Assembly: GCA_016192705.1 (NCBI GenBank)
Contig: JACPTQ010000078.1
Span: 1-50,164, forward strand
Origin: Deltaproteobacteria bacterium
Lineage (GTDB): Bacteria; Myxococcota; JACPTQ01
Direction: 5' to 3'
DNA: 50,164 nucleotides
Shown piece after piece: positions 1 through 50,164 of the stretch. Every line of letters starts with the position of its first letter. Position 1 is the stretch's first letter. The notes beneath the pieces were generated by a model, which was given only the letters and a program-made list of their open reading frames with translations, did not search any database and was not told the origin of the DNA. A program made the translations under genes and the position numbers.

Positions 1-28
1 ATTGTTGCCCGTTATCCGGGAATCAGGG
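1..28. repeat. Fragment of dispersed modular repeat (distal end)
   Basis: Bases 5-28 match the reverse complement of 46396-46419 at 23 of 24 positions. That second site is the outer end of a large modular repeat found between the two NHL lipoprotein genes. The sequence contains a small CCCG/CCGGG self-complementary core. It lies at the window edge, so the copy may continue leftward out of view. Confidence 0.6.
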
Positions 29-11399: not shown

Positions 11400-12275
11400 A
11401 TGCGAACACGCTTGATACGACCACTTCTGAATCACCGCGGTCCAAGACCACGGGCGGGCACACGAATCGCGGGGCTCTCTTATGACGGGCGCTTTGTCGG
11501 CGCCCACGATCGGCGCGAAATCCTCGAGGCCCTCGCGACGCTGCACCCGATCTGGGAGGAACGCTATGCGCCGCATCATCCACCGCCCGCTGGCGAACAA
11601 AACCGCAAGCTCCTTCGCCCCATCTACTGGCTCGGCGATTGGCAGTTCGCCTGCCTCGGTTACTACCGACCACCGCGCGCGACACGCGACTGCGCCGTTC
11701 GCGCCGAGCCGTTTCCACCTGTGCTCGCGCGCCTCGTTTCTGATATCGAATCGCGCACGCGCCGCCTCTTTGCCCCACGCGACATCCCGCGCGGATGGCA
11801 CTTGAACACCTGCCTCATCAACTATTACGGGAGCCGCATCGAAAACGGGAAACGAATCGACGTCGCCCGCGTCGGCGAGCACAAAGACTTTGAGCCCGGC
11901 CCCGTCGCGTCGGTGTCGCTCGGTGAGCGCGCGCTTTTTCAGTTTATCGCGAGCCGCAAAAAGGGCGAGCGCGACCGCGTCGTTCACGAAATGTGGCTCG
12001 ACGACGGGTCGCTCCAAATCTTCGGCGGCCCGCGGTGGAAGTCCGAGTTTTTTCATCGCGTGCAGCGCGTCGATCGGCGCGCGGGTGCGCACTTCGACAT
12101 CGCCGTCGACAACTTTGACGTTCGGCGCATCAACTTCACGTTTCGATTCGTGCCCGACGCCGACATCGTCGCGTTCGCGAAACTCGATGCTGCGGCGCGC
12201 GACGATGTGACGAGATACGTTACACAGCTCGCCGAGCACTCGGCGTTTTGGCGGGCCGCAGCCGAGCGACGATGA
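11400..12275 (+). CDS. AlkB-like Fe(II)/2-oxoglutarate dioxygenase
   Basis: A 291-residue cytoplasmic protein. NTCLINYYG and GEHKDFEPGPVASVSLGE reproduce the AlkB core, giving metal ligands H161-x-D163. The distal histidine is H219 in FFHRVQRV, and the 2-oxoglutarate clamp is the RxNxTxR motif at R243-N245-R249. AlkB enzymes oxidatively remove alkyl lesions from nucleic acid bases, and some act on RNA or proteins. The first 100 residues are an extension with no recognised motif. The ATG at 11400 lies 17 bases after the hydrolase stop, and the gene's stop overlaps the next ATG, so the three genes form an operon. No Ada-like regulator is nearby. Confidence 0.85.
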   Translation: MRTRLIRPLLNHRGPRPRAGTRIAGLSYDGRFVGAHDRREILEALATLHPIWEERYAPHHPPPAGEQNRKLLRPIYWLGDWQFACLGYYRPPRATRDCAVRAEPFPPVLARLVSDIESRTRRLFAPRDIPRGWHLNTCLINYYGSRIENGKRIDVARVGEHKDFEPGPVASVSLGERALFQFIASRKKGERDRVVHEMWLDDGSLQIFGGPRWKSEFFHRVQRVDRRAGAHFDIAVDNFDVRRINFTFRFVPDADIVAFAKLDAAARDDVTRYVTQLAEHSAFWRAAAERR

Positions 12276-16593: not shown

Positions 16594-16759
16594 GAGAAGA
16601 GAAACCACAGAGGCACTGAGTTCACAGAGTTCGGAGGAGTAAGAGATTTTCGTCATAAAAAAAGAAATGAACGAGTTTCTTCGACCGTCTGCGGTCCCCC
16701 AGTTTTTTTATTTCCTCCTCAGACCTCCTTACCTCTGCGTCTCTGTGGTTTCTCTTCTC
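16594..16759. repeat. 166 bp CACAGAG-type element with perfect 19 bp inverted ends
   Basis: GAGAAGAGAAACCACAGAG at 16594-16612 is perfectly inverted at 16741-16759. Inside the left end are further CACTGAG and CACAGAG words, and inside the right end CTCTGCG. The element begins directly at the stop codon of the sulfatase-fold gene. It contains the start codon and most of the signal peptide of the next gene. It encodes no transposase and looks like a MITE or other non-autonomous dispersed repeat. Confidence 0.75.
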
Positions 16760-30300: not shown

Positions 30301-32725
30301 GACGGAAGACGCCATGCTGCGGCTCACGCCCGAAAGCTTTTCGACCGCGCTTCGTGCCCATCATCTTTTCGAAGTCGTCGAAAAGGCGCGGCGCGTCGTT
30401 TTGCGCGAGGCGAAGGCGTATCACCAGGCCGTCCTCCGAGCGGCGCGCGAGCGGAAACCGATGACGCGGCTTGAAATGCACGAGATGGCGCGAACGACGG
30501 CGCTTCCGGCGGGCCTTGCGGGAAGCGTCTTTTGTGTGGCGGCGAAAGACCGTTACACATCGACGGGGCGCACGGAGTACGTTTGTGCGTCGTCGCCCCT
30601 TTTAATGGCGGGCGCGGTCGAATCGTTTGCCACGGCGCCGCTCGCGGGCGGGCCATCGCCAACAGCGGAGGCCGAAGTGCAGAAGCTTCGCCTGCAGGCG
30701 AAAACCGATTGGTGCTACGGGTCGGCGCAAGGAATGGGCGTTTACGGCGCGTATTCAAAGCAGACGCTCGTTGAAGGCGCAGGACTCGCGTCGCCGTTCG
30801 AGATGGCGCCGCCTGAGAGTGTCTGCACGGAGCGCAAGAAGGGTGCAAGCGGGCAAGAGAACGCGTGCGCACCAAAGGCGAAGAGCGCGGCGAATTGGCT
30901 CAAGTGTGCGGGGTTCCAGTACTCGGACCTCGATTGGTCGACGACGGTTGGGAGCGCGCGGAGCTTGCAGATGGCGTCGCAAGACGCGTCGGGGGTTTCG
31001 CGTGAGGAGCAGATTCGGCTTGAAGATGCGTCGCGCAAGGCAAAGGCCGAGGCCGAGAAGGCCCAGCAAGATGTCGAGGGCGTGAAGGGTGCGATCGCCG
31101 CCGAGAAGGCAAAGCTCTCGAAGTTGAAAGGCGTTTCGGTCGCTGTGGTCGCGGGAAAAGTCGCGTCGCTCCAGGGGCAGCTCTCGGGGCTCGAGCGAAA
31201 AGCCAAAGACCTCCTCGACAAGGCAAACCGCGCGGCGCAGGCGCTCCTCGCGACGGGGAAACGGATCATCGGCGCGGCTAAGGCCGGGGTCGACAAGGTG
31301 AGCGCGGTTGGCGACAAAGTTGTCGCGGGCGTGAGCGGTGCGAAAGAAACGGCGGAGAAGGGGAAAGAGATTCTCCAAAAGGTTTCGGGGATCATCGCGC
31401 CACTCCTCGACCTCGTTTCGCCCAAGCTCGCAAAGGCGGTCAAGTCGATCGAAAACGTCGCGCACACGTCGCTCGAATTTATTCGCGAGTGGGCGGGGAA
31501 AATCGAGGACATCATTCGGCCGGTCTGGGAAAAGGTGAAACAGTGGGGGAACGACGCGGTTAAGGCAGCCGAGGATGCGCTCGCGCTTGCTGAGAAGACG
31601 CTCAACGAAGCGAAGGAAAAGGCTTACACCTTATATAAGGAGGCGCGCGAGGGCGCCGAAAAGCTCGTGACCGATGCGCGTGACAAGGTCGAGAAGGCGC
31701 TCGTGAAAGAGGCGGGCGCGGCGGCGCAGATGAAGGAGGCGGCGGCACGAGAAGCGGCGGACCTCAAGCAGAAGCTGCAGGACGCGAAGAAGGCGGCGAG
31801 CGAGCTGATTAAGGGGAAAGAGAAGGAAGGGAAAGCGCTCGCGGATGGGGCGAAGAAAGTGTTTGAGGGGAAGCAGGGCGACTTGAAGAAGCTGGTCGTG
31901 GGGCTCGCGAAGATGCTCGCGGAGAAGGCGACCGAGTGGATCGCGACGGAGGCGCAAAAGAAGATCGGCGGATTCATGGACAAGATCCTCGACGATTTGA
32001 TGAATCTTGTTTCGTCGCGCGTGATGGAGCTGCTTGAGCCGGGCGTGCGCAACCTGCTCGCGCAGGGATTCAAGTTTGTGCGGAGTGTGCTCGGGCCGAT
32101 TGCGAAGGCGATCATCGGTGCACTTGCGTCGGTGCCGTTTGTGGGCGGTGCGCTCGCGCCCGTCGGGCAAGTGCTCTACGACTTTGGTATGAACAAGCTC
32201 GAGGACTTGGCGTTTGATCTGCTGCGCGGCGTGGTCGAGCGGTTTTTTGGGAAGACGGTGCGCGGGTTCCTCGCGAAGGTGTTTAAGGCTTTCGAGAAAC
32301 AGTTGAAGAGTTTCATCGCGGCCGGGTGCTCCAAGCTGGGATTCGGCGATGTTTGCAAGCCGCTCATGAAGATTCAAATGTTCGCGATGTTGCCCGAGCG
32401 GCATCAGTGGCTCGCGCGGGCCATCAACTGCAAGGAGCGACCGCTCATCGACGAGGCGATGCACAAAAAGGCGTACGCGGCGCGGCAAAAGATTCTGCGT
32501 ATCGGAAACGAGATGCGGCGCGACGTCGAGCTTTATGCGCGCGCGATCGCCGACCGGCAGCTTGCGAAGTTTGGGCTTTCGTACGACGGGCTCATGGCGA
32601 TGAAGCGTGGCCCGGCGCCGATCGACGTTCTTGCGGCGGCCGACGCGGCGAACGCAGCCATCGCGCGCAACGTTGCAAAGGCGCGAAACACGGTCGACGC
32701 CCGACGCCCGAAGATGCGGAACTGA
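27314..32725 (+). CDS. Giant secreted Cys-module and helical-repeat protein, no known family
   Basis: A 1803-residue exported protein I do not recognise. The ATG at 27314 has a perfect GGAGG five bases upstream and starts a Sec signal peptide (cleavage near residue 27). Residues about 290-1200 hold at least six modules of the form C-x(14-24)-C, many with an aromatic residue just before the second Cys, such as ...PQWVC and ...TEYVC. Residues about 1225-1560 are Ala/Lys/Glu-rich amphipathic helix with LEA/apolipoprotein-like periodicity. A hydrophobic stretch at about 1590-1617 (AIIGALASVPFVGGALAPVG) could insert in a membrane. The basic C-terminus has more helices. It stands alone as a transcript. 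Role unknown; a surface fibre, adhesin or envelope-spanning scaffold are guesses. Confidence 0.85.
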   Translation: MRRGFQLSVGSLFLATFLAMSGNARGASIESNFKKWIRTGQDGLEKCVKDLVVCYRALGNSRANDIQKRYDAIMREADNVRKKMKGDAVFGKSDEKRRNEFHKNHLKTFPNECKAELPKCLDDKRKTEATNRALQQGKTTEDKAKHVEDLAKGGGAVSVGAPSGTRSLRSGIRLWRRVRTGAFVRGFDVSRVKSVMTSAASTSTAEIPRAATAAQNPAATSSSTAPTAEPRVYITLPSDAPLKLTNPPSSDAETAVQMILKSKELRDERLRAIASRDREELDIERMMGLGPTQFCTSAGRCFSKLNEIANTLYGSATSGLSVFCAPRKTGAATQAGGGWDASKVHCSTNWVDTLGGWQPWTPSSAEGDRGRLVASKAPEPGVIPPYACFGNANMNAFATLPQGGEAGWSGFKCRKRVFRILATDAAMNQADENKAIVNMCTEMRQQVWAEKYANINAEYQKWCRTDPARVKKNLCLPPPKTEDGDEATAKQEPLPFMLLTREEMLYFYGHREVFCRGDRSGLTHFLYNDKWADTFTCGIARGLLEAGPFEEGVQACAISPYVGEPGKRGSLTRDDAKARLHCWKFTRPTCEEVSISKSKQEELDSLHRSNVFDAYDAFREYRRTQNKDVLELLDMKDAEKVRDFTDQISYSDSEKDEGTLDVKDFCRFVGDTSKIQCGYGKASMAAWYEARKDEAPAACDSGVCARGAYKRGYMCGVFSSEKYFEGKPQWVCGVDVGPAGQRLIAGASAVCVGGARAREFQSARGDTGSLQCYERRFKWAESQGSATIAGRLVALWPDAIRGAADEVAKDSATFFDPWLAGGKQSLDLRDKLLEEKAKAAANKDANGVSNANNKLGVLVGWWETALKKFGDTWKADTNDIVKWASDTGNTLGHRASAWKLLMSSNLKAINDFKNLSTPIGTAGLVGSKYEYAPLGSRTGQGISLVTQSDSDDPKERKDFKVVTKDGVQQLKDLVDEVVNGNRPADDKWYAEFRSAATEDAMLRLTPESFSTALRAHHLFEVVEKARRVVLREAKAYHQAVLRAARERKPMTRLEMHEMARTTALPAGLAGSVFCVAAKDRYTSTGRTEYVCASSPLLMAGAVESFATAPLAGGPSPTAEAEVQKLRLQAKTDWCYGSAQGMGVYGAYSKQTLVEGAGLASPFEMAPPESVCTERKKGASGQENACAPKAKSAANWLKCAGFQYSDLDWSTTVGSARSLQMASQDASGVSREEQIRLEDASRKAKAEAEKAQQDVEGVKGAIAAEKAKLSKLKGVSVAVVAGKVASLQGQLSGLERKAKDLLDKANRAAQALLATGKRIIGAAKAGVDKVSAVGDKVVAGVSGAKETAEKGKEILQKVSGIIAPLLDLVSPKLAKAVKSIENVAHTSLEFIREWAGKIEDIIRPVWEKVKQWGNDAVKAAEDALALAEKTLNEAKEKAYTLYKEAREGAEKLVTDARDKVEKALVKEAGAAAQMKEAAAREAADLKQKLQDAKKAASELIKGKEKEGKALADGAKKVFEGKQGDLKKLVVGLAKMLAEKATEWIATEAQKKIGGFMDKILDDLMNLVSSRVMELLEPGVRNLLAQGFKFVRSVLGPIAKAIIGALASVPFVGGALAPVGQVLYDFGMNKLEDLAFDLLRGVVERFFGKTVRGFLAKVFKAFEKQLKSFIAAGCSKLGFGDVCKPLMKIQMFAMLPERHQWLARAINCKERPLIDEAMHKKAYAARQKILRIGNEMRRDVELYARAIADRQLAKFGLSYDGLMAMKRGPAPIDVLAAADAANAAIARNVAKARNTVDARRPKMRN

Positions 32726-42561: not shown

Positions 42562-43430
42562 GGGCCACGCTCGGTGTCTTCCTCTGTGTACTCAGTGCCT
42601 CTGTGGTGCATCTTTTCTTCTCTTCGCCGGCATACGCCGACATCGTCCTCACCGACGCCCGCGGCGACACTCGCAACACCGCGCCCGGCGGCGACTTTTA
42701 CCGCCAAGACGCGTTCGACATCACCGAACTTCGCATCGCCGAAAAAGGCGCCGACGTCCTCGTCACAGCGACGTTCGCGGCCCGCGTGCCACTCCGCCAC
42801 AACGTCCGCCTCTCCCGCGAAACCACGGCAACGCTCTTCCCGATGAACATCGAAATCTACATCGACCAAAAGCCGCTCATCGGTTTCACGCGCACCCTCC
42901 CCGGCCGCCGCGTCGAGATCGCGCGCGAATCGGCGTGGGACGTGGCTCTCGTGCTGACCCCGCAGCCGCGCGAATTCGCGGGCGAGCTCCGCCGCATCGA
43001 CGCCGAACTCGCCGACCGCACCCATTTCGCCGCCAAACCTCGCGTGCGCGGTCGCACCGTGTCTGGCCGCTTCCCCCGCGCGCGCATCGGCGAACTCACG
43101 CCCCACATGGGTTTCGTCGTCCTCGTCACGCCGGCCGCCTTCCGCTCGACGTTCCAACTCTTCGGCGAGCACCTCCTCTTTATCGCCGACGTCCGCGCCC
43201 GCGCGACGAGCTGCTCACTTGAATCTCCCGACTCGACCGGCTGCGCATTTGGCGGCTGCAAACCTTGCGGCGACCACCCGCGCGTTATCGACGCCATCGT
43301 CGCAAAAGACGCGAATGAACTCGAACTCTTCGGCGCCTATTCGAGAGGCCGTTTCGTAAACGTTCCGGCACGCGTCCCTAAACCGCCCGCGCCGAAACTC
43401 CGCTCGCAGCAGCCGCCGATCGAATTGTGA
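42558..43430 (+). CDS. Exported glucodextranase-C-like protein
   Basis: A 290-residue secreted protein with cleavage after AYA (residue 27). The mature part resembles the C-terminal carbohydrate-associated domain of glucodextranase and amylopullulanases: LTDARGDTRNTAPGGDFYRQDAFDITELRI with acidic calcium-type residues, then alternating beta strands. A short Cys cluster (about 218-236) may be disulfide-linked. The start overlaps the GH13 stop. The signal-peptide core at residues 9-17 is encoded by a half-copy of the CACAGAG-type repeat. A role in binding glucan for the amylase is inferred. Confidence 0.7.
   Translation: MRATLGVFLCVLSASVVHLFFSSPAYADIVLTDARGDTRNTAPGGDFYRQDAFDITELRIAEKGADVLVTATFAARVPLRHNVRLSRETTATLFPMNIEIYIDQKPLIGFTRTLPGRRVEIARESAWDVALVLTPQPREFAGELRRIDAELADRTHFAAKPRVRGRTVSGRFPRARIGELTPHMGFVVLVTPAAFRSTFQLFGEHLLFIADVRARATSCSLESPDSTGCAFGGCKPCGDHPRVIDAIVAKDANELELFGAYSRGRFVNVPARVPKPPAPKLRSQQPPIEL
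42582..42606 (+). repeat. Half-copy of the CACAGAG-type repeat inside a signal peptide
   Basis: These 25 bases match the reverse complement of 16605-16629 at 24 of 25 positions. They encode residues 9-17 of the glucodextranase-C-like protein, its hydrophobic signal core. Confidence 0.75.
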
Positions 43431-43452: not shown

Positions 43453-43545
43453 CCGGCAAAGTGTCGTGCGTCCCTTGATTAACAGGTGCCGCCCCCTACC
43501 ATAGAAGAAGAGCCGCCCGCTTCTGCTGTAGAGGGGACACGTCAG

Positions 43546-46392
43546 GTGAAGCATCGAGACTGCCACTTTGCGTTTCTTATTCCGCTTAGCCTCGCGGTCG
43601 CGTGTACGGGGATTGCCCCGCGCGGGCCCAAAGCGGGACCGGATGCGGGTGCGGACGCCGGTGCGGACACGGACGGCGGCGATGCGGGCGCGGACGATAG
43701 CGACGCCGGCGCGGACGGCGGCGATGCGGGTGCGGATGCCGACGCTGGTTCAGATGCGGGCGACGCGGGAGTTCCCAGCTATTCTCTCTCGATTTGGTCG
43801 GCTTCCCCTTCGACCGGCCCGTCAGACGGCGGGACATCGGTTACGATCTACGGAAGCGGATTTGTCGCCGGCGCGTCCGTCACGTTTGGCGGAACGCCGG
43901 GTGCGGTTTCGATCTTTTCCGGGGGAAACATTGCGGTCACGACCCCAGCCCACGCTCTCGGAACGGTCGATATCGTCGTCACAATTCCAGATGCATCCGC
44001 GACTCTGTCGAACGGCTTCACATTCTGCAACTCGCTCACGGTCACGTCGGTGAATCCGACGTTTGGCCCCGCGGCCGGAGACGCATCGGTCGACGTCACG
44101 TTTACAGGGTACGGCCCCGACGCATCTGTCTTCTTTGGAGATAAGAGCGCCACGATAACCGTGCGAAGCAATGGCGCGAACTTCACGACTCTCACCGTGC
44201 GAACCCCGCCCGGCCGCATCCTCGAAACCGTGCCGGTCAAAGTCGCGACCACCTGCGGCACGGCGGAAACAGCTAACGCCTACGCGAACCTCCCGCGCAT
44301 CACGACCTACGCGGGCGGCGGCACCGGCGCGAACCTGCCCGCAACCACCGTCGCAATTCGTCAGCCCGAACACGCCGTCGTCGACGACGCGGGAACCGTT
44401 TACGTCTCCGACGCCAAGCGCCACCGCATCTACCGAATTAGGCCGGACGGCGGCATCTTAAAACACTTCGCCGGTTCAGGCGAATCGTGGTCTGGACCCG
44501 ACGGCCCCGCGGTATTGGCCGCCATCCACGAGCCAGCGGGTCTCGCGCTCGCGTCAGACGAAACGCCCTATTTCGCCGAAACATCCGGCGGGCGCGTTCG
44601 TCGATTTGGCGCCGGATCGGTCGAAACAGTCGCGGGCACCGGCTCGAAGTCAGACCCTGACGCTGCGGCACTCGATATCAAACTCAACGCACCGATCGGA
44701 CTCGCGTTCGACTCGCAAGGTCGCCTCCTCATCACCGACCGCGACGCGCATGTCGTTCGACGCCTCGACCTCACGACCAATCGCATTCACCTCGTCGCGG
44801 GAACGGGCGATGCGGGCTTCAGCCCCGACGCGTCGATTGCTACACAGGCGAACCTCAACAGCCCGATCGGCATTGTCGAATATCCGCCCGGAACGTCTGG
44901 ATTTGCATTCGCCGAAAATGGCAACCACGTTGTTCGATGGGTCGACGGCGACGGCGGCACGTCGATTCTCGTTGGAGGCGGCACCGAAGAGCTCGACGCG
45001 GGCCTTATCCCTGCGCGCGCGGTGCAACTGTACGGCCCGTACAGCGTCGCACGAGATTCGACCGGGACTCTTTTCATTTCTGAAGTCGGCGCCAAACACC
45101 GAGTCTTCGGCTACAGCCCCACATTCGATACCGTTTTCCCTCTTATAGGGACCGGAAGCTCGGGCCCACCATCGCCCGACGGAACGGTGCTCGGGAGCGT
45201 CAATCTCGGCGCGCCGCGCGTCGCGACGTCACCCAAGGGTCCCATCTACGTTCTCGAAGCCAATAACCAGTGGATTCGCGTGGTCGATGCCGGCTCGGAC
45301 GGAACGCTCGCTCTCTTCCGCATCGGCGGTACGGGGCTCAACGGCCCGAATTACTTCGGCGACGACGCGGGAGCAACGTCCGCGGGATTTAGCTCCCCAT
45401 CCGGACTTGCAGTCACTGGAACCGCGGATATGCTCACTTTGTCGATCGCCGACGCGCTCAACAACCGGATTCGACAAGTCAGCGCAACCGGGATTATCAC
45501 CACGTATACGGGCAACGGCGACGCGGGATTTTCCGATGGAAGTGGCGACCTCCTCGACGCCCAATTCAACCAGCCGCGCGGCCTTGCATACAATTCAACA
45601 ACTCTTCTCGTGTCCGATACGTTGAACAACCGCGTTCGGGAGATCACATGGGTTTTCGACGCAGGCCCCGTGAAGACCAAGGCGGGCAACGGCGATGCGG
45701 GGTACTCGGGCGAAGGCGGCCTGGCAACCTCGGCGTCGTTTGGGTCGCCCAGTGGGCTTGCGGTGAGACTCGGGACGCCCGAGATCTACTTCGCATCGTG
45801 GACACACCACGTGGTCCTCAAGGTCGACTGGGCTGGAAATATGGTCCGGGTTGCTGGAATCCCTGGTCAGCCGACGCCAAGCAGCGATGGGGGCGTCTAC
45901 GGTATCGACGCGGGCGACGGTGCGCTTGCGACAAACGCTACGCTCAACACCCCCACCGGAATCGCCTTTGACAATGGGGGCAAAACCCTCTTCATCGCCG
46001 ACCTCTCGAACCACCGCATCCGGCGCATCAATCTGATGATGGGTGGCGTCATCGAAACCATCGCGGGCAACGGAATCGCGGGTTCCTCAACCGCGACACT
46101 CGTTGCCATCGACGCCGGAATCGATTCGCCCTTGGGCATTTGCGTCGACAGCGCCGACCGAATCTTCTTCACCGAAAGCACCACCGGCCGCGTGCGCATG
46201 ATCGCAAAAAACGACGCCGGCATCGAAATGATTTCCATCGTTGTCGCGGCGCCACTTGGCCGCGGCTTTTATGGCGATAATGGCTACGCCGGCGACGCGG
46301 GTTTCTTGAACCCGGGCGCAATCGCGTGCGGAAGCGACGATGCCCTCTACATTTCGGACGCCGAAATGGACCGCGTGCGCCGAATCCGGTGA
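43546..46392 (+). CDS. IPT/TIG-NHL surface lipoprotein (paralogue 1)
   Basis: A 948-residue predicted lipoprotein with lipid cysteine C20 (LAVAC). A DAG spacer runs to about residue 80, then two IPT/TIG immunoglobulin-like domains (about 82-165 and 166-245; STGPSDGGTSVTIYGSGF is diagnostic). A long NHL-type propeller region fills the rest. The repeat unit is of the kind (A)GNGDAG(F/Y)SG...A..A.L..P.G(L/I), followed by VSD...HRIR. The GTG at 43546 has GAGGGG nine bases upstream and starts the signal peptide. The second copy of this architecture follows at 47078. A ligand is unknown; such proteins may anchor polymers or partner cells. Confidence 0.82.
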   Translation: MKHRDCHFAFLIPLSLAVACTGIAPRGPKAGPDAGADAGADTDGGDAGADDSDAGADGGDAGADADAGSDAGDAGVPSYSLSIWSASPSTGPSDGGTSVTIYGSGFVAGASVTFGGTPGAVSIFSGGNIAVTTPAHALGTVDIVVTIPDASATLSNGFTFCNSLTVTSVNPTFGPAAGDASVDVTFTGYGPDASVFFGDKSATITVRSNGANFTTLTVRTPPGRILETVPVKVATTCGTAETANAYANLPRITTYAGGGTGANLPATTVAIRQPEHAVVDDAGTVYVSDAKRHRIYRIRPDGGILKHFAGSGESWSGPDGPAVLAAIHEPAGLALASDETPYFAETSGGRVRRFGAGSVETVAGTGSKSDPDAAALDIKLNAPIGLAFDSQGRLLITDRDAHVVRRLDLTTNRIHLVAGTGDAGFSPDASIATQANLNSPIGIVEYPPGTSGFAFAENGNHVVRWVDGDGGTSILVGGGTEELDAGLIPARAVQLYGPYSVARDSTGTLFISEVGAKHRVFGYSPTFDTVFPLIGTGSSGPPSPDGTVLGSVNLGAPRVATSPKGPIYVLEANNQWIRVVDAGSDGTLALFRIGGTGLNGPNYFGDDAGATSAGFSSPSGLAVTGTADMLTLSIADALNNRIRQVSATGIITTYTGNGDAGFSDGSGDLLDAQFNQPRGLAYNSTTLLVSDTLNNRVREITWVFDAGPVKTKAGNGDAGYSGEGGLATSASFGSPSGLAVRLGTPEIYFASWTHHVVLKVDWAGNMVRVAGIPGQPTPSSDGGVYGIDAGDGALATNATLNTPTGIAFDNGGKTLFIADLSNHRIRRINLMMGGVIETIAGNGIAGSSTATLVAIDAGIDSPLGICVDSADRIFFTESTTGRVRMIAKNDAGIEMISIVVAAPLGRGFYGDNGYAGDAGFLNPGAIACGSDDALYISDAEMDRVRRIR

Positions 46393-47077
46393 GGGCCCTG
46401 ATTCCCGGATAGCGGGCAAGATTTGCGTGGGGTGGGCGGGGTTGGGCTCGCTCCGGCTCGCAAAAGTCCTCGGGTCTGACATGAAATGTGAGTCTGCACG
46501 AAACGAATTAAACATCATGAGAACGGCAATCCCACGCCCCATCGGCACCTCATCCCCTGCGGACGCGACCCGGAGCAAGCCCAATCCCCGCCCGCCCAAC
46601 CAGACCTCGGCCGTTTTCCTGAAACGGCGGTTAAGAGACTTGGGGGTCGATCGATCGTCAGCCGACACCCAGCGGGTGAAATCTTCGTACCGCCCTCAAG
46701 CCCAGAAAACACGTCTCCGGAAAGCGGTCCGCCCGGATTTGCGTAGGGTCGGCAGGGCGCCGCGCAGGCGCGCCTATTCCGCGAGCAGTCTGTCGGCAAG
46801 CCAGCGGCTTGCCGGCGCGAGCGGAATGGCGAGGGCGACGGAACGGAGCCCGCAGCCCGACCTTCGTGCAGGGTCTGCAGCGCGATATCGGCTGGGACCA
46901 GCGAGCTTTCGCGCGCCTCTGAACCGCGGATCGTTCGCGCGTCTCAAATCAGACCCGAGGACGTCGGCGCGCCGAAGCGGGCTCCTGTCGACCCTCACGC
47001 TCACGAGCGAACGAACCGCTTAACCGGTGAGAGGGTGCAAACATGAAATCCCGCGGCTGGGTTGCTACATTATAGAG
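46393..47077. repeat. Modular intergenic repeat between NHL paralogues (copy 1)
   Basis: This 685-base gap holds no convincing gene; a 227-residue open frame across it is composition-driven. Repeat content starts at 46396, three bases after the stop of paralogue 1, and extends to 47026. Module C (46511-46568, 58 bases) is identical, inverted, to 50107-50164. Module G (46915-47026, 112 bases) is about nine-tenths identical, inverted, to 49996-50106. Bases 46396-46419 recur, inverted, at 5-28. The word GTCCTCGGGTCTGA appears at 46466-46479, inverted at 46949-46962, and again in copy 2 at 50059-50072. The 346 bases between modules C and G are absent from copy 2. Confidence 0.85.
46776..46827. 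repeat. Nested REP-like hairpin inside the modular repeat
   Basis: ATTCCGC (46776-46782) pairs with GCGGAAT (46821-46827). Inside, CGGCAAGCC (46794-46802) pairs perfectly with GGCTTGCCG (46806-46814) around the loop AGC. It lies within the 346-base block present only in copy 1. Confidence 0.75.
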
Positions 47078-49984
47078 GTGAGAATACGCCTCGGTGAGCC
47101 ACCCCGAAACATCTTAGCGATGGTGTGTGTCGCGGCCGCCTTAGCGTGCACCGGCCAGCTCACGCCACGAATCTTTTGCGGCCCGAACCTACCGCCTTGC
47201 AATCAGCCCCTCGTTTGCACAAATCCTGACAGCGGCGGCGTTTGTGTCGTCGACACGTGGAAGGGCGATGCCGGACTCGATGCGGGGACCGACGCTGGCC
47301 TCGATGCGGGCGACGCTGGCCTCGATGCGGGGACCGACGCCGGTCCCGACGCGGGCGACGGCGGCACGACGGACGCGGGGTTACTCAGCATCTCCAACTT
47401 TTCACCCACTCGGGGTTCATCCAAAAGTTTTGTAACGTTGGTCACGGTGTGGGGCACCGGATTCGACTCTGGCGTGACTTTGCAGTTTGGTGAAACACCT
47501 GGAACATCAATTACCGTATGGAACGACACGGCCCTTCAAGTGACCGCGCCAGCCCTTCCGCGCGGACCCGTTAATATCGTGGTCACGTCGCAATCGCTTG
47601 ATGCGTCGGCGATCGGACCGTTTCCATTTACTTATTACGACCCCGTCTCGGCATCTGCCATTTCGCCCGATGCCGGACGCGCGACGGGCGGCGAGACTGT
47701 CACGATCTACGGTTCCGGTTTTGTGCCTGACGACGCCGGCGTCTGGTTCGGTTCCAACCTCGGCACGATCGTCTCCATCGACCCCGACGGCGGCTCGCTT
47801 CAGGCGCTCACCCCAGCGGGCCTCGCTTACGATCCGGTCGACGTCGTCATCTCAAACCACAACGGCTTCGCCACGCTTCCACTCGCGTTCGACTATTACT
47901 CCATCCTCTCGACGATCGCAGGCGGCGGCGGCGGCACGGACACGGAGGCCCGGCTCGTCCACCTCGGCGATACGACGTTCGCCGCCATAAGCACGGGTGG
48001 CGACATTTACGTTTCATCGGCCGACCTCCACCGCATCTACATCATCTATCCGAATGGGCGCCTAACCCATATCGCCGGCACCGGGGTCTACGATTCAGGC
48101 GCCGACGGGCTCGCGCTCACAACGGACATCGCAAGCCCGCGCACGGTCGCCGTCACAGCGGATGGAACGGTTTATTTTGCGGAGTACGGCGGAAATCGCG
48201 TTCGGAAGATTGTTGCGGGTGGAATCGTCACCGTCGCCGGAAACGGAGTTGCGGCGAGCAACGGCGACAACGGCCTTGCGACCAGTGCGTCGGTGTTGAC
48301 TCCATTTGGCGTCGCGCTCGACACGGCCGGACGCCTCTTCATTACCGAGCAGCTCGCGCATATCGTTCGACGCGTCGACCTCGACGGCGTTATCCGGGTC
48401 GTCGCTGGAACGCGGCAAGTCGGGTTCGACGCCGGCGCGAGCCTTGGGGAGTACACGCGAATCGCATTTCCCAGCGGCATTGTCGAATGGCCCGTCGGCA
48501 CGGGCGGCGTCGCCTTCGCCGAGTATGGAAACGGCATCGTTCGTCACGTCGACCGCGACGGCGGCACGCGCATCCTCGCGGGCGGCGGCTCGACGACCTT
48601 CGATTCCGGCATCGCCGCCACGGCCGCGTTGCTCCCCGAAACCCTTTGCGTTTCGCGTGGCGCTTCGGGCACCCTTCTCGTTTCTCAGTACGCCGCATCG
48701 TGGGCCAGTAACCGGTCACGCGTTTTAAGCTACGTCGAGGACGCGGGAATCGACGGTGGCGCACTTTACGCCGTCGCCGGAACGGGAAACCCCGGTTTAT
48801 CAAACGATGGCGTCTTAGCGACATCGAACCCCATCTGGGCGCCTTGCGTGTTTTCGAACAGCGCCGGCCAACCGTTCTTCACGGACTACTCGACGTCAGG
48901 AAGCCGCATTCGCACGATCGACAGCGGCGCGCTCCTCACCGTCGGAGGAAGCGGCAACGAGGCGACGAACTTTTTCGGCGACTTGGGACCCGCAACTTCA
49001 GCGGGCATCGGCGGCGCCATATCCGTCGCCTTCGACAGAACCAGCAACCGGCTTTTTATTGGCGACACGCGAAATCATCGAATCCGCGTCGTCGAAACCG
49101 ACGGAGTTATTTGGACGTTCGCCGGGAACGGCGACGCGGGTTTTACGGGTGAGAACGGCGAGGCCGTCATCGCGTCACTGTTCCAACCGCGCGGAATCAT
49201 CGCCGACTCGAGCGGCACAATTCACTTTTCGGATAATCGCAACAACCGCCTGCGTTCGATCGTCCAGGCCAACCCCCCGCCCATCATTCAGCTGCTCGCC
49301 GGCGATGGAACGACCGATAATCCCAGCGACTACTCAGATACGCCAACCGCGAAGTTGAACGCGCCCCGCGGCCTCGCCATCACGGCCGACGGCACAATTT
49401 ATGTTGCGGATTATGGAAACCACGTTGTGCGCCGTATAACGCCAGACAGACTCTTCATCTCCCGCTTCGCGGGACAATTCGACAAACCCACCGACGCAGG
49501 GGTTCCGCTCGGCGACGATGGCGGCGCCCTCTTTGCAACTCTCAGCGGTCCGACGGATGTTGCGGTCGACAGCCAGGGGAACGTCTACATCGCCGACAGC
49601 AATAACCATCGCATCCGCCGTGTCCGCGATGGCGGCGAAATCATCGAAACCGTCATCGGTACGGGGGTCGCCGCAACCTCCGGCGACTTCGGGCCGGCGG
49701 CCCTCGCATCGCTCAACAACCCAACGGGCATCTGCGTCGACGAAAAAGACCGGCTCTACATCGCCGAGCGCAACGGTTTCGTCGTTCGGCGCGTCTGGAA
49801 GAACACGCAGGGCATTGAAATCGTGCGCGTCATTGCGGGGCGCGCCGACGCGGGCCTCTTCAACGGCGACGGCTGGCCATCGACGGTTGGAACGCTCACC
49901 GATCCAAATGACGTCGAGTGTGGCCCGAACGGGACGCTGTACGTCACCGAGCCCGCTATCGATCGCGTTCGCATCATTAAGTAG
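47078..49984 (+). CDS. IPT/TIG-NHL surface lipoprotein (paralogue 2)
   Basis: A 968-residue predicted lipoprotein with lipid cysteine C24 (AALAC). A short four-Cys stretch (FCGPNLPPCNQPLVC...) leads to a tandemly repeated DAG/DAGLDAG spacer, two IPT/TIG domains and a long NHL region ending in VTEPAIDRVRIIK. The order of domains and many blade motifs match paralogue 1, pointing to gene duplication. GTG at 47078 is the chosen start; ATG at 47120 would also leave a signal peptide but no basic N-region. The gene is flanked by inverted copies of the modular repeat, which could allow inversion of the segment. Confidence 0.82.
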   Translation: MRIRLGEPPRNILAMVCVAAALACTGQLTPRIFCGPNLPPCNQPLVCTNPDSGGVCVVDTWKGDAGLDAGTDAGLDAGDAGLDAGTDAGPDAGDGGTTDAGLLSISNFSPTRGSSKSFVTLVTVWGTGFDSGVTLQFGETPGTSITVWNDTALQVTAPALPRGPVNIVVTSQSLDASAIGPFPFTYYDPVSASAISPDAGRATGGETVTIYGSGFVPDDAGVWFGSNLGTIVSIDPDGGSLQALTPAGLAYDPVDVVISNHNGFATLPLAFDYYSILSTIAGGGGGTDTEARLVHLGDTTFAAISTGGDIYVSSADLHRIYIIYPNGRLTHIAGTGVYDSGADGLALTTDIASPRTVAVTADGTVYFAEYGGNRVRKIVAGGIVTVAGNGVAASNGDNGLATSASVLTPFGVALDTAGRLFITEQLAHIVRRVDLDGVIRVVAGTRQVGFDAGASLGEYTRIAFPSGIVEWPVGTGGVAFAEYGNGIVRHVDRDGGTRILAGGGSTTFDSGIAATAALLPETLCVSRGASGTLLVSQYAASWASNRSRVLSYVEDAGIDGGALYAVAGTGNPGLSNDGVLATSNPIWAPCVFSNSAGQPFFTDYSTSGSRIRTIDSGALLTVGGSGNEATNFFGDLGPATSAGIGGAISVAFDRTSNRLFIGDTRNHRIRVVETDGVIWTFAGNGDAGFTGENGEAVIASLFQPRGIIADSSGTIHFSDNRNNRLRSIVQANPPPIIQLLAGDGTTDNPSDYSDTPTAKLNAPRGLAITADGTIYVADYGNHVVRRITPDRLFISRFAGQFDKPTDAGVPLGDDGGALFATLSGPTDVAVDSQGNVYIADSNNHRIRRVRDGGEIIETVIGTGVAATSGDFGPAALASLNNPTGICVDEKDRLYIAERNGFVVRRVWKNTQGIEIVRVIAGRADAGLFNGDGWPSTVGTLTDPNDVECGPNGTLYVTEPAIDRVRIIK
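47276..47344 (+). repeat. Minisatellite in the DAG spacer of paralogue 2
   Basis: Three direct units of 24, 21 and 24 bases start at 47276, 47300 and 47321, each beginning CTCGATGCGGG and encoding Leu-Asp-Ala-Gly-(Thr)-Asp-Ala-Gly. All are multiples of three, so copy-number change keeps the reading frame. Confidence 0.75.
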
Positions 49985-49995
49985 CCCCCAATCCT

Positions 49996-50164
49996 CGGTT
50001 AAGCGGTTCGTTCGTTCGTGAGCGCGAGGGTCGGCAGGTGCCGCTTCGGCGCGCCAACGTCCTCGGGTCTGAACTTACTCGCGCGAACGATCCGCGGTTC
50101 AGAGGCTCGCGTCCGCAGGGGATGAGGTGCCGATGGGGCGTGGGATTGCCGTTCTCATGATGTT
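49996..50164. repeat. Modular intergenic repeat (copy 2, inverted, truncated by window end)
   Basis: It begins 11 bases after the stop of paralogue 2. Bases 49996-50106 match 47026-46915 inverted, and 50107-50164 match 46568-46511 inverted with 58 of 58 identity. The two modules are directly adjacent here, so the 346-base spacer of copy 1 is missing. The copy continues past the window end. Confidence 0.85.

Follow-up and report, generated by a model that had tools for sequence, protein, structure and literature searches.

The repeat that flanks the second of two paralogous lipoprotein-like genes in the 50,164-nt stretch analysed here (the window; positions 1-50164 of contig C24, which spans 53,859 nt) is very probably a MITE, that is, a family of non-autonomous DNA transposons, and its two copies beside these genes are then two ordinary insertions. 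This identity follows from three properties taken together: terminal inverted repeats, 8-bp target duplications and a non-coding sequence. The family is a new one of a known kind of element, with an unusually clear gene-boundary distribution. Its host is a deep, uncultured lineage, Myxococcota-related or myxobacterium-like, whose genome (G000) comprises 5.21 Mb in 88 contigs, is 96.65% complete and has 63% GC. The nearest matches of the host DnaE are Deltaproteobacteria/Myxococcales MAGs, with at most 53% identity, and the set searched contained no close relative.

The following features lie in the window:

1-28, minus strand: left end of another MITE copy, at the point where the contig begins (C24:9-26 has no mismatch to the left-end pattern).
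43486-46392, plus strand: paralogue 1, a lipoprotein-like host gene with IPT/TIG and NHL repeats.
46388-46395: putative target duplication GGTGAGGG on the left of copy 1, with the stop codon (TGA) of paralogue 1 inside it (7/8 match).
46396-47025, plus strand: MITE copy 1, a long form whose extra hairpin module, of 92 nt, is at model position 381, recognised as a genome-wide repeat and by its ends and model match.
47026-47033: putative target duplication GGTGAGAG on the right side of copy 1 (7/8 match to 46388-46395).
47080-49984, plus strand: paralogue 2, a lipoprotein-like host gene with IPT/TIG and NHL repeats; its start codon was estimated by eye, in an ORF open from 47027.
49977-49984: predicted duplication TTAAGTAG of copy 2, with the stop codon (TAG) of paralogue 2 inside it; its partner is hidden by the gap.
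49985-50164, minus strand: MITE copy 2, internally deleted, recognised by its inverted arms and deletion junction; it runs into the gap.

Copy 1 is one contiguous element, of which ~10 bp of the right end have apparently been lost. In copy 2, model position 180 is joined to position 427 with an 11-bp microhomology, and a scaffold gap of 17 N (50165-50181) cuts the copy right after the window. The sequence-only reading had described an inverted, modular repeat. Its repeats are real, but not the division into separate blocks: the modular look of the repeat stems from copy 2, which lacks the element's interior and is cut by the gap. The inverted arms align 46511-46571 with 50104-50164 (98% complementary over 61 nt) and 46910-46980 with 50041-50111 (90% over 71 nt), and a third pair aligns 46980-47038 with 49984-50042 (85% over 59 nt). 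Bases 5-28 do match 46396-46419 at 23 of 24 positions, and another copy, extending off the contig start, has its outer end at bases 1-28. A block of 58 bp had been singled out for its identity between the two window copies, with gene conversion as one possible cause. It is in fact common property of the family: two or more other copies have it unchanged, and 14 more have it with at most one mismatch. Gene conversion between the window copies was rejected on this ground.

Copy 2 as assembled might be a chimera formed at the scaffold gap, with no real internal deletion. Its position next to the 17-N gap and the microhomology at its junction are in line with such an origin, as is the finding that ~60 of the 176 contig ends in the assembly fall within MITE copies. 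The boundary with paralogue 2, on the other hand, is unique sequence at a stop codon, as elsewhere in the family, and similar deleted forms occur within contigs (L105, L124, L058). We consider a chimera unlikely, though not negligibly so, and treat copy 2 as a true deleted insertion. Contig ends C24/C67, C35/C44, C61/C84 and C8/C65 pair by matching 9-11 bp duplications, which suggests that each pair is bridged by a single MITE copy and can be scaffolded; C24 ends and C67 starts in copies that have the duplication TCGTATAGG in common. This has a practical use, as target duplications let contigs broken at MITE copies be joined.

The sequence 46396-47026 is repeated as a whole in the host genome, with 247 candidate places. 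Forty of them were scored and all 40 match it, with best segments of 84-100% identity. The 27-nt core CGCCCCATCGGCACCTCATCCCCTGCG has 103 genome matches at no more than 3 mismatches and the left-end pattern 101 at no more than 2; controls, with the reversed pattern in the case of the core, gave 0 in both searches. A spreading repeat with many intergenic copies, for which a genome search had been proposed, is thus what the genome contains. Locus-level counts were taken over 117 sampled MITE loci, and the sampled copies make up ~1.1% of the assembly.

A profile built from 23 main-form copies provides a 552-nt model of the element, whose core is ~550 nt long. The terminal inverted repeats are imperfect: CCCTGATTCCCGGWTAACGG on the left and, as reverse complement, CCCCAATCCCCGGTTAAGCGG on the right. 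Complete copies measure 126-886 nt, mostly 540-560. The long forms are extended by hairpin modules, at ~175 or ~381 of the model; a module at one position is nearly the reverse complement of that at the other, and the two positions mirror each other in a roughly palindromic element. Long copies such as L078, L113 and L039 carry a mirrored, opposite-orientation module at 175/381, with nested inserts, as if the interior had inverted or the arms had been exchanged. No reading frame of the element has coding character, and a Pfam search with its longest ORF returned no match. At L050, L066, L069 and L125 both MITE ends enclose an unrelated interior (TTTGATAGGTCGTCGGCTGTCCGAGAGTCG...); these four copies are a second subfamily that uses the same ends.

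Inverted repeat ends and a fixed 8-bp duplication are the hallmark of DDE transposases. Among the copies with both ends (n=83), 60 have an 8-bp target duplication at a flank score of at least 7. When the flank pairs were shuffled 200 times, 0.9 such copies were seen on average and never more than 5. The AT content of the flanks is 52-70% across exactly eight positions and falls back outside them. From the 63 best duplications emerges a weak and palindromic target preference, WTTRYAAW; TTGAC, tested as a -35 box that could serve as target, occurs in only 3 of these 63 (p ~0.04). Neither window copy has an unambiguous full duplication, copy 1 with a 7/8 match and an eroded end and copy 2 being cut by the gap. 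The duplication of copy 1 was identified by eye, outside the automatic scoring, which missed it because the right end is eroded. Separately, the complete copy L087 (C48 ~31480-31957) has no duplication of its own, and its left flank equals the right flank of another copy (start of L079, on C20) over 12 bp: either recombination between copies or a chimeric join would account for this.

The element therefore has the terminal inverted repeats, the fixed-length duplication and the many dispersed copies of a MITE, and is short with no transposase gene. MITEs are typically shorter than 500 bp and AT-rich (PMC10969869). Against the assignment, the present element is GC-rich and long by comparison: in size it comes near the upper limit of what is usual, and its consensus has 63.9% GC, AT-richness being a typical but non-defining trait. 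Also against it, no autonomous partner or transposase was found. DDE_Tnp_1, Transposase_mut, IS66, IS1595 and ISL3 were not detected in the host genome, with working controls, and searches of the draft assembly by terminal repeat and by these five families gave no autonomous partner with the same ends. Orphan ends were also considered as candidates for such a partner; the ends fetched were variants of the same element or chance matches. The autonomous element has therefore been lost, is of another family, or is missing from the assembly.

Outside the host, 194 further genomes of the phylum all lack the terminal repeat. The 96 relatives searched gave weak matches only, to part of the hairpin module: four in number (best E ~2e-4), restricted to the GC-rich module and treated as chance. 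Core patterns had no match in public genome contigs, viral contigs or plasmids, sets that may leave out near-identical records.

Several known systems offer points of comparison. The Correia element duplicates TA, in difference from the 8 bp found here, and REP/BIME palindromes leave no target duplication. REP/BIME elements with RAYT transposases are dispersed intergenic palindromes, as is the present family, but an element of ~550 nt with 8-bp duplications is not of their kind, REPs being 20-40 bp long (PMC3733652). The Correia element of Neisseria, of ~200 bp, carries promoters and an IHF site (PMC10969869). It resembles our family in having >100 copies, in being palindromic and in its frequent position upstream of genes, and differs from it in that copy 1 lacks a sigma-70-like promoter. 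The Chunjie MITE of Geobacter uraniireducens, of 178-235 bp, has 38 copies with both ends and 57 partial ones (PMC10969869). Like Chunjie, the element is non-coding and multicopy, ends in terminal inverted repeats, is flanked by direct repeats and lies mostly between genes, many of its copies being truncated; unlike it, it measures ~550 nt, has other ends and exceeds 100 copies. QMITE2 of Coxiella burnetii (~190 bp at full length, 78 copies; PMC10969869) resembles the family in its internally truncated copies and in its location, mostly in 3' untranslated regions. It differs in that the sites described here fall directly on the stop codon or between divergently oriented genes.

Intergenic insertions number 68, at 40 divergent, 24 co-oriented and 4 convergent sites. 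Sampled intergenic bases divide 28 : 55 : 16% in the same order, an excess of divergent sites (p ~1e-7) that is measured against a small baseline of 14 kb, with approximate gene calls and start codons estimated from codon usage. Twelve sites lie inside called genes; the genes that first-look calls showed as interrupted were mostly an artefact of stop-to-stop ORFs. At 16 of the 24 co-oriented sites the insertion is near the stop codon of the upstream gene (6.6 expected, p ~5e-6), in a span of -11..+10 nt that was picked after the data were seen. Three successive copies on C24 are situated in this way, at the stop codons of paralogue 1, paralogue 2 and the next gene, dnaE, and each time the codon falls within the duplication: TGA in the putative one at paralogue 1, TAG in the predicted one at paralogue 2 and TAG of dnaE in the one joining C24 to C67. 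The gene would survive the insertion because the duplication recreates its stop codon.

These locations are most simply explained if the target leans towards AT in a genome of 63% GC and gene-breaking insertions are lost, so that target preference and purifying selection would be their cause. In the mechanism that we propose, a transposase, presumably of DDE type and acting in trans, would cut the MITE at its terminal inverted repeats. The MITE would then enter an 8-bp WTTRYAAW-like target, which becomes duplicated. Such targets, in this genome, would cluster at gene boundaries, namely divergent promoters and stop codons, and insertions there would persist, the duplication keeping the gene end or the promoter intact. 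It is conceivable, but rather improbable, that an undescribed type of transposase targets stop codons and divergent promoters directly and requires the long hairpin arms, insertion then being harmless by design and not through selection alone.

Copies differ from each other by 17% on average. The recognised duplications show 19 changes in 63 x 8 positions, an underestimate, since pairs with more mismatches were excluded, and a copy has ~1.5% private variants (316 singletons over 37 copies). With so little change in duplications and private variants against 17% divergence, the insertions seem much younger than the divergence of their source lineages. The best identity between assembled copies is 93.8%; very similar assembled pairs may be absent because many contig ends fall in copies.

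The predicted fold consists of two long hairpins closed by the ends of the element (z = -6.2). With the structure derived from the alignment, standard pairs fill 96.9% of pair cells (38-45% in slid controls), and 16 pairs show double changes; the structure was taken from the same alignment used to test it, which makes these values circular. In a test with less circularity, across eight single-sequence folds, shared variants per column are 0.55-0.64 in stems versus 0.85-0.97 elsewhere, while private variants are 0.52-0.58 versus 0.56-0.68, with no clear depletion in stems. The chi-square for the contrast in stem depletion gave p = 0.012 for one fold. We infer that the structure is required during propagation and is under little constraint later: selection for mobility, not for host function.

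A host-maintained structured element at gene ends and promoters, such as a regulatory RNA, a terminator or an mRNA stabiliser, would also explain the strong fold, the conserved stems with double changes and the placement at gene boundaries. It is very unlikely, since the target duplications show transposition, stems show no clear deficit of private variants, and the two classes of sites, upstream of genes and at stop codons, argue against one common function. Rfam 15 covariance models over 46300-50164 gave no match up to E = 5, and a search of copy 1 found neither a sigma-70-like promoter nor an excess of terminator-like sites, which speaks against this explanation too. Individual copies of the MITE may nonetheless have been co-opted by the host.

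The family has no general link to lipoprotein genes. An NHL-lipoprotein-like ORF occurs at only 1 of the 117 sampled loci, the one that holds both paralogues, so the association is coincidental, and the expectation of copies beside lipoprotein genes genome-wide did not hold. Nor is the repeat specific to the gene that would be switched, as expected of an invertible segment. The 7/8 duplication suggests that the flanks of copy 1 are still original neighbours, with no inversion separating them. Recombination across the inverted pair, flipping paralogue 2 and phase-varying a surface lipoprotein, is favoured by the 98% (61 nt) and 90% (71 nt) inverted arms, which lie 3 kb apart and could in principle undergo homologous recombination, but we judge it extremely improbable: the family has >100 copies, copy 1 seems to retain its own flanking duplication, swapped duplications between the two window copies were looked for and not found, and a promoter between copy 1 and paralogue 2 would flip along with the gene, being inside the supposed invertible segment. 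The window copies are independent insertions of a family with 8-bp duplications, and their inverted orientation has no special role.

A second inverted-repeat family, AACCACAGAG/CTCTGTGG, is present in the window at 16594-16759, a 166-bp palindromic unit between two genes, and at 42582-42619. A related stretch at L026 (~11936-11995) runs in frame within the dnaE ORF (RGKREEKPQRHRAEEIGRADQG).

These results correct an attractive phase-variation story for the lipoprotein pair, and they add a high-copy MITE family from a lineage in which five common transposase families are undetected. Its gene-boundary sites, together with stems that are conserved among source lineages but near-neutral in their private changes, make it a testable case of a selfish element spreading densely in a compact GC-rich genome.
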